NCBI GenBank assembly: GCA_013141015.1
Contig: JABFRT010000016.1
Location: 1-59,553, forward strand
Origin: Hyphomicrobium sp.
GTDB taxonomy: Bacteria; Pseudomonadota; Alphaproteobacteria; Rhizobiales; Hyphomicrobiaceae
DNA: 59,553 nucleotides
Direction of reading: 5' to 3'
The notes under the pieces were generated by a model. The model was not told where the DNA came from. It did no database searches and saw only the letters and a program-made list of their open reading frames with translations. Numbering within the stretch: the stretch's first letter is position 1; every line of letters begins with the position of its first letter. This document shows positions 21,213 to 24,188 of this stretch, in pieces. Position numbers and translations under genes: made by a program.

Positions 21213-23660
21213 ATGACCGCTGCATCGCCCAAGAAACTGCCCCCCGCCGACGACTATGGCGAAGACAGCATCAAGATGCTGAAGGGTCTGGACGCGGTTC
21301 GCAAACGCCCCGGCATGTACATCGGCGACACCGATGACGGGTCGGGCCTGCACCACATGATCTACGAAGTCGTCGACAACGGCATCGACGAAGTTTTGGC
21401 CGGTCACGCCAACGCCTGCTCGGTGACGCTGAACCCGGACGGCTCATGCACCGTGCGCGATGATGGCCGCGGCATTCCCGTTGGCATCAAGAAGGACGAC
21501 GACAACGATCCGAAGCGCTCGGCGGCTGAAATCGTGTTCACCGAATTGCACGCGGGCGGCAAGTTCGACCAGAACTCGTACAAGGTGTCGGGCGGTTTGC
21601 ACGGCGTCGGCGTGTCGGTCGTCAATGCGTTGTCGGCTTGGTTGAAATGCCGGATCTGGCGCGACGGCAAAGAACACTTCCTCGAATTCAAACACGGCAA
21701 CACGGTTGCGCCACTCAAAGTTGTCGGCGACGGCAAGGGCGAGCGCGGCACCGAAGTCACCTTTCTGCCGAGCACAGAGACGTTCCACAACGTCATGGAG
21801 TTCGACTACGCCACGCTTGAACATCGCTTGCGCGAATTGGCGTTCCTGAACTCAGGCGCAAAAATCCGCCTGACGGATGCGCGCCACGCCGACATCAAAA
21901 CCGAAGAGTTTATGTACGAAGGCGGCACCGCTGAATTCGTGCGCTATCTCGACCGTTCGAAGACTTCGGCGCTATCTGAGCCGATTATGATCCGCGGCGA
22001 GAAGGACGGTATCGGTGTTGAGGTCGCGTTGTGGTGGAACGACAGCTATCACGAGACGGTGCTGGCGTTTACGAACAACATTCCGCAGCGCGATGGCGGC
22101 ACGCACTTGGCCGGCTTCCGCGGTGCGCTGACGCGTATCGTCAACAAATACGCCGAAGAAACCGGCATCGCCAAGAAGGAGAAAGTTGCGATCTCGGGCG
22201 ATGACGCGCGTGAAGGTTTGACATGCGTGCTGTCCGTCAAGGTGCCCGACCCGAAGTTTTCCTCGCAAACCAAAGACAAGCTGGTCTCGTCCGAAGTGAA
22301 GCCGGTCGTTGAAAACACCGTCGGCGATCAGCTCGGCGCGTGGTTTGAAGAGCATCCGAAAGAAGCCAAAGTCATCGTCACCAAAATCTGCGAGGCGGCG
22401 ATTGCGCGTGAGGCAGCACGAAAGGCGCGCGATCTAACACGACGCAAAGGTGCGCTCGACGGCTTGCGTCTGCCAGGTGGCCTCGCCGAATGTCAGGATC
22501 GCGATGCGTCGAAGACCGAACTGTTCATCGTCGAAGGCGACTCGGCTGGCGGGTCCGCCAAGCAAGGCCGCAAGCGCGAGTTCCAAGCTGTGCTGCCGTT
22601 GCGCGGTAAAATCCTGAACGTTGAGCGGGCGCGCACCGACAAGATGCTGTCGAGCGAGCAGGTGACCAACATCATTGCGGCACTCGGCACCGGCATTGGC
22701 CGCGAGGAATTCAAGCTCGACAAGCTGCGCTACCACAAGATCATTATCATGACCGACGCCGACGTCGATGGCGCGCATATCCGCACGCTGTTGCTGACGT
22801 TCTTCTACCGGCAAATGTACGAGCTGGTTGACAAGGGCCACGTCTACATTGCGCAGCCGCCGCTGTATAAAGTTCAGCGTGGCAAGCAGCACCAGTATTT
22901 GAAGGACCAACGCGCGCTTGAAGATTACCTGATCGATCAGGGCCTCAACGACGCGGTGTTGATTGCCGGCGATGGCTCGGAACGCGCGGGCCGCGATCTG
23001 CGTGATGTAGTCGAACAGGCGCGCCAAGTCGCCAACGGCATCAACGGACTGCATTCGCGCTACAACCGCTCGGTGGTCGAACAGGGCGCGATTGGCGGTG
23101 TGTTCGATCCGGCGTTATTGCAATCGGCCGATAAAGCCAACGCGGCAGCAAGCGCGATTGCCAAGCGTCTCGACGATATCGCGGACGAAATGGAAACCGG
23201 ATGGGAAGGCCGCTTCGGCAACGACGGCTTCGTGTTCAAGCGCGAAGTGCGCGGCGTTTTGGAAGTCCACAATCTCGACCGCAACTTGTTGGGGTCTTTG
23301 GATGCGCGCCGCCTGCATGAACGCCTCGGGCACTTGCAGGAAGTCTATGGCCGAACCGCCAAGCTGCGCCGCAAGGATAAGATCGATATCATCCACGGGC
23401 CGCGCACGCTGCTTGAAGCTGTCTACGACACCGGCCGCAAGGGTCTCGATCTGCAGCGCTACAAAGGCTTGGGCGAAATGAACCCTGAGCAGCTGTGGGA
23501 GACCACGCTCGACCCGACCATCCGCACGCTGTTGCAGGTGAAAATCGACGACATCGCGGAAGCCGACGAGATTTTCTCCAAGCTGATGGGTGATGTGGTC
23601 GAGCCGCGCCGCATCTTCATCCAGGACAACGCGTTGAATGTCTCGAACTTGGATGTGTAG
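21213..23660 (+). CDS. gyrB: DNA gyrase subunit B
   Basis: This 815-residue ATPase subunit of gyrase, with GyrA, introduces negative supercoils. The Bergerat ATP site shows VVDNGIDE and DDGRGIPV, followed by [15 protein letters not shown]. The TOPRIM part has [15 protein letters not shown] (near 440) and [19 protein letters not shown] (near 514). It ends in [19 protein letters not shown]; most relatives have REFI there. The last 81 bases are repeated at 24108-24188 (see that entry). Confidence 0.98.
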
Positions 23661-23691
23661 GTAGGGCGAATACCATAGCGGAGCTTGGCGT

Positions 23692-23877
23692 ATGAGCCCG
23701 ACCGTTTTGCGAAAGGATGGTTACCGTTTTTTCTTCTTTTCGCGGGAAGAGCTGCGGATGCATGTTCATGTGTCGTCGAGTGACGGAGAAGCCAAGTGGT
23801 GGCTGGAGCCAGAAGCGATTGTACGCGAGCACTACGGAGATATTTGCGATGCCTGGAAGCGTCATTTCGGCGATTGA
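23692..23877 (+). CDS. DUF4160 protein
   Basis: This is a 61-residue protein with the DUF4160 pattern: TVLRKDGYRFFFFSREE, then MHVHV and GEAKWWLEP. GGAG lies 8 bases before the ATG. It overlaps the next gene by 29 bases. DUF4160 and DUF2442 genes are regularly found side by side and have been suspected to be toxin-antitoxin-like or mobile pairs; no activity is established. The module lies between two copies of the gyrB 3' end, so it is very likely inserted. Confidence 0.85.
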   Translation: MSPTVLRKDGYRFFFFSREELRMHVHVSSSDGEAKWWLEPEAIVREHYGDICDAWKRHFGD

Positions 23878-24109
23878 AGTCACCAATATTTCGCGCCACG
23901 GTCTTTGGCTTTTCACGAGCGCCGGCGAGCGGTTCTTGCCGTTTGAAGCCTTCCCGTGGTTCCGCAACGCTCCGGTGGCTCACATATTGAATGTGCAGGA
24001 GCCTTCGCCGGGGCACTATTATTGGCCCGATCTCGATGTTGATCTGTCGCTAAAAATCATTGAGAAGCCGCAGGACTATCCGTTGCGGGCGAATGTAGCG
24101 GGTGCCTAA
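23849..24109 (+). CDS. DUF2442 protein, partner of the DUF4160 gene
   Basis: The product has 86 residues. The DUF2442 pattern is clear: VTNISRHGLWLFTSAGERFLPFEAFPWF, followed by HYYWPDLDVDLSL. The ATG at 23849 lies inside the preceding DUF4160 gene with GGAG 9 bases upstream, so the two are translationally linked. Stop TAA (24107-24109) overlaps the first two bases of the duplicated gyrB end. The family is thought to be a regulator or antitoxin-like partner; this is not proven. Confidence 0.85.
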   Translation: MPGSVISAIEVTNISRHGLWLFTSAGERFLPFEAFPWFRNAPVAHILNVQEPSPGHYYWPDLDVDLSLKIIEKPQDYPLRANVAGA

Positions 24110-24188
24110 GCTGATGGGCCACGTGGTCGTGCCGCGCCGCGAGTTCATCCAGGACAACGCGTTGAATGTTTCGAACTTGGATGTGTGG
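24108..24188 (+). repeat. Second copy of the gyrB 3' end
   Basis: The 81 bases match the end of gyrB (23580-23660) at 72 positions (about 89%), with no gaps, at a distance of 528 bases. In the copy the gyrB stop TAG has become TGG, so it is a non-functional fragment of about 27 codons. It carries GAG where gyrB has ATC; GAG gives the family-typical Glu (REFI). The similarity stops sharply at both sides, which marks the borders of an inserted DUF4160-DUF2442 module. Confidence 0.93.

Follow-up and report, generated by a model that had tools for sequence, protein, structure and literature searches.

A toxin-antitoxin cassette between two copies of the gyrB 3' end in Hyphomicrobium, with similar footprints behind other core genes

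A cassette between two copies of the gyrB end

Contig JABFRT010000016.1 of Hyphomicrobium sp. (assembly GCA_013141015.1, genome G000 in our numbering) carries an intact gyrB gene followed by a DUF4160 gene, a DUF2442 gene and then a second, partial copy of the gyrB 3' end. The entire contig, 59,553 nt long, was analyzed and will be called the window; its relevant features are collected in Table 1. A sequence-only reading of this DNA had reported that the last 81 bases of gyrB recur with 72 identical positions and no gaps, and that the TAG stop of gyrB is TGG at the same position of the copy. Repeat search and alignment confirm the first statement, the 81 gyrB bases differing from the copy at 9 positions, and inspection of the sequence confirms the second. 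Taken as a direct repeat, the two copies are 82 nt long, ungapped, 89% identical and spaced by 528 nt, with a local alignment score of 55 as against at most 12 in 10 shuffles (locus L043). The right copy has changes of its own, namely Asp to His, Glu to Val and the lost stop. Codon 23613-23615 of the intact gyrB differs at each of its three bases and reads Ile, in a tail that is otherwise conserved and that, judged from the tails at 27 of 30 loci, has Glu or Asp at this position in relatives.

Between the repeats, the list of open reading frames (ORFs) and Pfam identify the DUF4160 and DUF2442 genes, overlapping by 29 nt, and no integrase or recombinase, just as the earlier reading had described. 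The first two bases of the gyrB copy are also the last two of the DUF2442 stop codon, so the insert is a bare cassette consisting of a 31-nt leader and two genes.

The DUF4160 product matches PF13711 above the curated cut-off (E-value 1.6e-8), over positions 1-34 of the 65 in the profile only, and the DUF2442 product matches PF10387, likewise above the curated cut-off (E-value 1.4e-13). These domains, together with the overlap and the toxin-first gene order that fit a DhiTA module, indicate that the pair is a locus of the DhiT-DhiA (DhiTA) toxin-antitoxin (TA) family. Aligned with the toxins of two other loci, L033 and L184, the window DUF4160 is about 17 residues short of a complete toxin; we therefore regard the locus as a DhiTA family member in which the toxin is probably dead and the antitoxin intact, not as a proven working system. 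PADLOC gave no match to the three proteins tested, and neither the window DUF2442 nor an intact DUF4160 matched a solved structure.

Toxin genes of the same clade in genomes G023, G086 and G082 are interrupted by frame changes, and the antitoxin frames of these three and of the window are all open across the domain. In this clade, the toxin seems to decay before the antitoxin, and the window cassette probably represents a retired toxin with a surviving antitoxin. The latter would fit the anti-addiction idea (PMC2654758, which, like the other articles cited here by PMC number, is drawn upon in part). Counted by locus, four of the four toxin genes in the clade (window, L044, L042 and L041) are damaged, one by an internal deletion and three by frame changes.

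Table 1. Features around the gyrB end of the window
Feature	Position	Strand	Basis
gyrB, intact target gene	21213..23660	+	Pfam DNA_gyraseB etc.; NCBIfam NF011501 and TIGR01059 above cut-off
Left copy of gyrB 3' end, functional gene end; Ile where relatives have Glu/Asp	23580..23661	+	Repeat search; tails of relatives
Leader, 31 nt, from gyrB stop to toxin start (about 32 nt in G086)	23661..23691	+	Sequence
dhiT-like toxin gene (DUF4160), 61 aa; about 17 internal residues of intact relatives missing, probably inactive	23692..23877	+	PF13711
dhiA-like antitoxin gene (DUF2442), 86 aa, open frame; stop overlaps gyrB copy	23849..24109	+	PF10387
Right partial copy of gyrB 3' end, lacking the stop; probably the original tail in displaced position	24108..24189	+	Repeat search; polarity of differences
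Orphan ORF, 98 aa, directly 3' of gyrB copy	24185..24481	+	No Pfam or NCBIfam match
DUF4112 gene, usual gyrB-downstream neighbor in genus	24745..25218	-	PF13430

The gyrB loci of relatives

GyrB was matched in all 60 genomes searched, the window genome included. The gyrB loci of 29 relatives were compared, comprising 18 of the 21 genus relatives and 11 further members of the family; one of them, L031, has only about 85 nt downstream. Each locus gave one tail match and none gave a second (blastn, window 23661-27000), which indicates that the tail duplication in the window is a lineage-specific insertion. The same pair with the same partial copy in all relatives, an outcome that the sequence-only reading had named as telling against an insertion, was not seen. 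Counted among the 29 is G023, which carries a module without a tail copy.

DUF2442 is present in 19 of 103 family genomes and in 4 of 22 genus members, and within the genus the window has the only one linked to gyrB. A DUF4160-DUF2442 pair lies directly behind gyrB in two other genera, represented by G023 and G086, and among 101 modules it is the antitoxins of these two that are closest to that of the window (75% and 66%, respectively; they are 71% identical to each other). Comparison of G086 with G028, a member of the same genus, reveals a bare insertion of about 490 nt right behind the gyrB stop. No copy of the gyrB tail was found at the module of G086 or G023, so these loci share the left junction with the window and differ from it in the right junction. 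In an even sample of the order, a search for close relatives of the window antitoxin matched 2 of 397 genomes, through the window itself and a weak, stop-ridden match in G036; this sample evidently missed G023 and G086. The single tails of the 29 relatives, and G028 as an empty site for G086, bear out the earlier proposal that an insertion took place at the 3' end of an essential gene and left its reading frame intact.

Copies of gene ends at other DUF2442 loci

One rule was common to all sets surveyed: up to 900 nt on each side were searched for direct repeats, and the best of these had to score at least 19. The sets are best-scoring matches, at most 30 loci per search and the best 80 of a capped scan for the genome-contig set, and are not random samples. 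Loci with flanks that were too short were excluded (2 of 26, 1 of 28 and 2 of 80 for DUF2442; 2 of 30 for ParE, 2 of 30 for HicA, 2 of 22 for BrnT and 0 of 30 for the cold-shock-gene (CSD) control), 22 of the 25 BrnT matches having entered the repeat test. In a scan of 102 modules, 4 had less than 120 nt on one side.

The score was reached by 7 of 24 DUF2442 loci in the family, 1 of 27 in the order and 9 of 78 on genome contigs. A narrower rule with a threshold of 16 gave 6 of 24, 1 of 27 and 6 of 78 for the same sets, 3 of 29 for ParE (two of these being 18-nt repeats) and 0 of 28 for HicA; cross-paired loci reached this narrower threshold 12, 4, 0, 1 and 0 times per 600 pairs per set, with some cross pairs sharing ilvB. 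After reading of the individual loci, 9 distinct cases among 129 DUF2442 loci were accepted as having a copy of the 3' part of the upstream gene close behind the antitoxin. Other pairs flanked by a partial copy of the upstream gene, for which the sequence-only reading had suggested a search, thus do exist. Besides the window (L043, gyrB), the accepted loci are L033, L035/L060, L036 and L038, all with ilvB as the target; L184, with a 132-nt copy of a carboxyltransferase gene that we take to be of the acyl-CoA carboxylase type; L100, with an alpha/beta hydrolase gene; and L062 and L135, in which the copy is from near, not at, the end of pbpC (penicillin-binding protein 1C) and of a sigma-54 activator gene, respectively. 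The ilvB product scored below the NCBIfam cut-offs, as the query was a piece of no more than 410 aa. L035 and L060 carry one repeat, appear by sequence to be the same organism and were counted once; L067 and L179 share the end of an upstream gene. A tenth, decayed case is L054, which falls below the score-19 rule and has rpoD as the target, with a second piece of rpoD about 1.3 kb further down. Counting the HicAB insertion of G003 described below, repeats in cases other than the window are 29-338 nt long, and carriers include Trueperaceae, Planctomycetota, Acidiferrobacterales and Bradyrhizobiaceae.

Several of the 17 DUF2442 loci that reached the score were not accepted: L056 and L042 are weak or remote, L064 and L081 have repeats of another kind, the repeat at L132 resembles a dispersed repeat, that at L107 is 29 nt with an unclear gene end, and that at L113 is the start of a gene on the opposite strand. 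At L053 the remnant is at most 18 nt, and at L047, L049 and L057 no tail remnant was seen. The L113 locus has a layout of its own, a DhiTA module between two copies, each of about 240 nt, of the start of the opposite-strand gene, presumably a DNA methyltransferase.

Other toxin-antitoxin families

Under the common rule, the cold-shock-gene control gave 0 of 30, and other TA families from the same bacterial family gave 1 of 28 (ParE), 3 of 28 (HicA) and 2 of 20 (BrnT). The ParE case, L219 in G002, is a ParDE module that lies behind thrS and is followed by 131 nt copied from the end of that gene, with the stop lost. In two of the HicA cases, L256 in G003 and L242 in G118, which represent two genera, HicAB lies behind one and the same small gene; L240 is the third match above the threshold. 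The BrnT loci L309 and L308 lie between repeats of about 317 and 49 nt. Since target ends are also copied in the ParDE and HicAB cases, the footprint appears from these small best-match sets to extend to TA modules beyond DhiTA. In both L256 and L242, HicB is fused in frame to the start-less copy of the target gene, the hybrid frame being 224 aa long in L256.

Many of these loci come from metagenome-assembled or draft genomes, in which an assembly or binning artefact might create such repeats. We give this explanation almost no credence, since the two copies in the window differ at 11% of their bases and the same architecture is found in G003, a one-contig genome, and across many independent assemblies. 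The sequence-only reading had also spoken of the gyrB end as an integration site, and gene 3' ends are indeed common attachment sites; a recombinase acting in trans could have used them, with the repeat as the attachment core. Such site-specific integration is highly improbable here. No recombinase lies between the window repeats, and no common attachment core is apparent, the repeats differing in sequence and in length and belonging to unrelated genes. The right junctions vary as well, and unrelated TA families show the same behavior, so the term is unlikely to apply in the sense of a recombinase target.

Empty sites, right junctions and loyalty to one gene

The HicAB insertion of G003 can be compared with empty sites in G021 and G001, neither of which has a match to HicA. 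These comparisons give target duplications of 338 and 331 nt, respectively, in flanks that are about 92-94% identical. For ilvB, the module-bearing G119 can be set beside the module-free G121, in which the end of ilvB is directly followed by a gene; a homolog of that gene (47% over 144 aa) follows the right copy in G119. By this comparison, the right copy of G119 marks the native end of the gene. In three genomes of one genus the ilvB copies are 61, 52 and 42 nt long, and copy lengths differ among the HicAB insertions also.

These junctions bear on a rearrangement in place, by which a module would have entered behind gyrB without a copy and the copy would have arisen later by tandem duplication and partial deletion. 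Copy-free gyrB modules of the required kind exist in G086 and G023. Nevertheless, this course of events is very unlikely, because the right copy in G003 and G119 runs into native DNA with no remnant of a second module, and because several TA families would need to have suffered the same accident each time.

Modules tend to keep to their genes. The best out-of-genus match of a DUF2442 lies behind the same gene in three of three gyrB cases, five of five rpoD cases and four of five ilvB cases. Judged by these matches, the gyrB and rpoD groups of modules behave as lineages keeping to one gene, and the ilvB group is mixed. Such loyalty would follow directly from a Campbell-type exchange, in which a circle containing the cassette and one copy of the gene end is excised between the repeats and enters the same gene end elsewhere by a single crossover; the order of intact gene, cassette and partial copy is also precisely that of a single-crossover product. 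On this account, however, the junction between antitoxin and copy should travel with the circle, yet the ilvB copies within one genus, and the HicAB copies, are of unequal length, and G086 and G023 lack a copy altogether. We consider a Campbell-type exchange unlikely.

Which copy is native

The polarity of the differences between left and right copies was assessed by counting, at the sites where they differ, how often relatives match the right copy and how often the left. G001 is not in the counts for G003. The right:left ratio is 3:0 for G003 against G021 and 5:3 for G119 against G121. L060, compared with the left tails of two module-carrying relatives, gives 8:1 and 7:2, and the window, compared with G011, G002, G008 and G003, gives 5:3, 6:3, 5:2 and 6:3, respectively. 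If both copies were native, one would expect the right copy, freed from constraint, to drift and relatives to agree with the left one. As it is the right copy that is matched more often, we lean toward a left tail that came in with the cassette, the downstream copy probably being the displaced original tail.

Not all comparisons agree. G120, a congener of G119, sides with the left copy by 8:0, but it is remoter than G121 (87% as opposed to 93% in IlvB), and two relatives at a greater distance from G003 give 1:1 and 2:1. The L060 comparison depends on relatives that carry the module themselves and not on empty sites, and three of the nine differences in the window make up a single codon, without which the polarity there is close to a tie. 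A foreign tract in the gene body to the left of the insertions was also looked for, and no clear drop in identity was seen at the 3' end of gyrB or ilvB or to the left of the G003 HicAB, so that no long foreign tract is visible. The suggestion in the sequence-only reading that the copy is the original tail is accordingly favored by the four cases in which the right copy is matched more often, and is weakened by the opposite result for G120, by the nature of the L060 relatives and by the slender margin in the window. Its specific argument, Glu in the copy where the intact gyrB has Ile, stands as an observation, but the copy has the two substitutions and the lost stop of its own.

The polarity also touches upon a staggered-cut insertion, in which some unknown nuclease activity would cut the target at two widely separated points and repair would duplicate 30-340 bp, both copies being native. 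The sizes of the duplications and the empty sites fit, and target duplications on the order of 100 bp are described for some restriction-modification (R-M) systems (PMC3874152). Gene loyalty is left unexplained by it, as is the better match of the nearest relatives to the freed right copy than to the constrained left one, and we regard such an origin as rather improbable.

A proposed route of acquisition

With a probability that we would put at roughly 0.55, the window records a homology-anchored, illegitimate acquisition of a DhiTA cassette behind gyrB, as one case of a recurrent entry of TA modules into the 3' ends of core genes. The incoming cassette would have comprised the leader, DUF4160 and DUF2442, about 450 nt in all, and no recombinase. 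Donor DNA in which the module already lay behind a gyrB end would have paired with the resident gyrB through homology on the left; its right side would have been linked, with no true homology, to a point within the resident gene about 81 nt short of the gene's end. In the product, the incoming tail would complete an intact gyrB, with the cassette behind it, followed by the resident tail as a dead fragment and finally by the native neighborhood. Transcription as part of the gyrB unit, along with addiction, may once have kept the cassette in place, and damage to the toxin, with retention of the antitoxin, would have come later. Homology on the left combined with illegitimate joining on the right would yield an intact gene, a truncated native tail, variable right ends, loyalty to one gene, members without a copy and no need for a recombinase.

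Several observations weigh against this proposal. Most DUF2442 loci are without such a duplication, 112 of the 129 falling below the threshold. No donor DNA was identified against which the illegitimate nature of the right joint could be demonstrated. Unequal copy lengths could also be explained by the decay of one longer copy. Loyalty is less consistent for DUF4160, at two of three for gyrB and none of five for ilvB, with five of five for rpoD, and the loyal groups could instead reflect old vertical inheritance with many losses.

More tentatively, and at somewhat less than even odds, we suggest that chromosomal TA modules may form target-loyal lineages, each residing behind one housekeeping gene (gyrB, rpoD, perhaps ilvB or, in the case of HicAB, a small conserved gene). 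With the 3' part of its gene as a homology arm, a module would enter a new species, where it would restore the gene and displace the resident tail. If true, this would represent a mobile state that is free of a recombinase, with transcription provided by an essential gene and with clean loss becoming harder once the displaced tail has decayed.

Relation to known systems

DhiTA is active in Dickeya dadantii and Escherichia coli, its toxicity being neutralized by the antitoxin in Dickeya (PMC8198452), and a Thermus module stabilizes plasmids, a plasmid without the second ORF giving no transformants (PMC12724237). Like these, the window has DUF4160 first and an overlapping DUF2442 (PMC8198452, PMC12724237). 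It differs from them in its shortened toxin and in its location in the 3' end of gyrB.

Insertion with target duplications on the order of 100 bp is known for R-M genes (PMC3874152 and PMC3031569, citing Nobusato et al. 2000 and Furuta et al. 2010). The loci described here resemble those insertions in having an addiction-type pair, no recombinase, long direct repeats of target DNA and an empty allele in relatives. They are unlike them in that the cargo is a TA module of one of several families (DUF4160-DUF2442 in the window) with no R-M genes, in that the gyrB and rpoD modules keep to one target gene across genera, and in that it is the 3' portion of the upstream gene that is copied. Homology-facilitated illegitimate joining has been proposed for type VI secretion effector-immunity modules of Vibrio (PMC5361080), where, as in our proposal, there is a conserved anchor on the left, an illegitimate joint on the right and a resident 3' piece pushed downstream. 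In Vibrio the anchor is the region upstream of the effector-immunity module, and an immunity gene forms part of the displaced piece (PMC5361080), whereas the anchors proposed here are housekeeping genes that keep a complete frame.

That TA modules are mobile and subject to decay is established, and a review sets them beside R-M genes; the parts of that review consulted report no long target duplication for TA modules (PMC2654758). A literature search that covered few subscription journals found no report of such an insertion footprint for TA modules. How small chromosomal TA modules spread when not on a mobile element is an open question, and the similar footprints behind other core genes suggest a route by which such cassettes may spread without their own recombinase. 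A displaced gene end is a durable mark that can be searched for in genomes, which makes the proposed route testable on a large scale. The footprint links TA modules to the long-known insertion behavior of R-M genes. It also suggests that such cassettes repeatedly remodel the 3' regions of essential genes, including gyrB and rpoD.

A second footprint in the window genome and the downstream neighbors

The window genome has a further case of its own. The window gene at 56143-56412 (89 aa) is the target gene of HicAB in G003 and G118, and on another contig of G000, C3, a HicAB module (L326, within 125000-130000) has behind it a copy of this gene that is 193 nt long and 90% identical. An insertion sequence of about 850 nt (97.5% identical) adjoins both the window gene and the HicAB site on C3. 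The window contig and C3 may thus belong together or may have been rearranged by the insertion sequence.

The sequence-only reading had expected relatives to have one gyrB end followed directly by the gene that it placed at 24194. A single tail is indeed common to them, but the ORF in question (24185-24481) was not found in the other 21 genomes of the genus, its own genome being the one match in 22, and the usual neighbor is DUF4112, matched (tblastn) at 14 of the 29 gyrB loci of relatives and at 12 of the 18 within the genus. The orphan ORF encodes hydrophobic stretches and has a G+C content of 51.5%, compared with 59.0% for the window.

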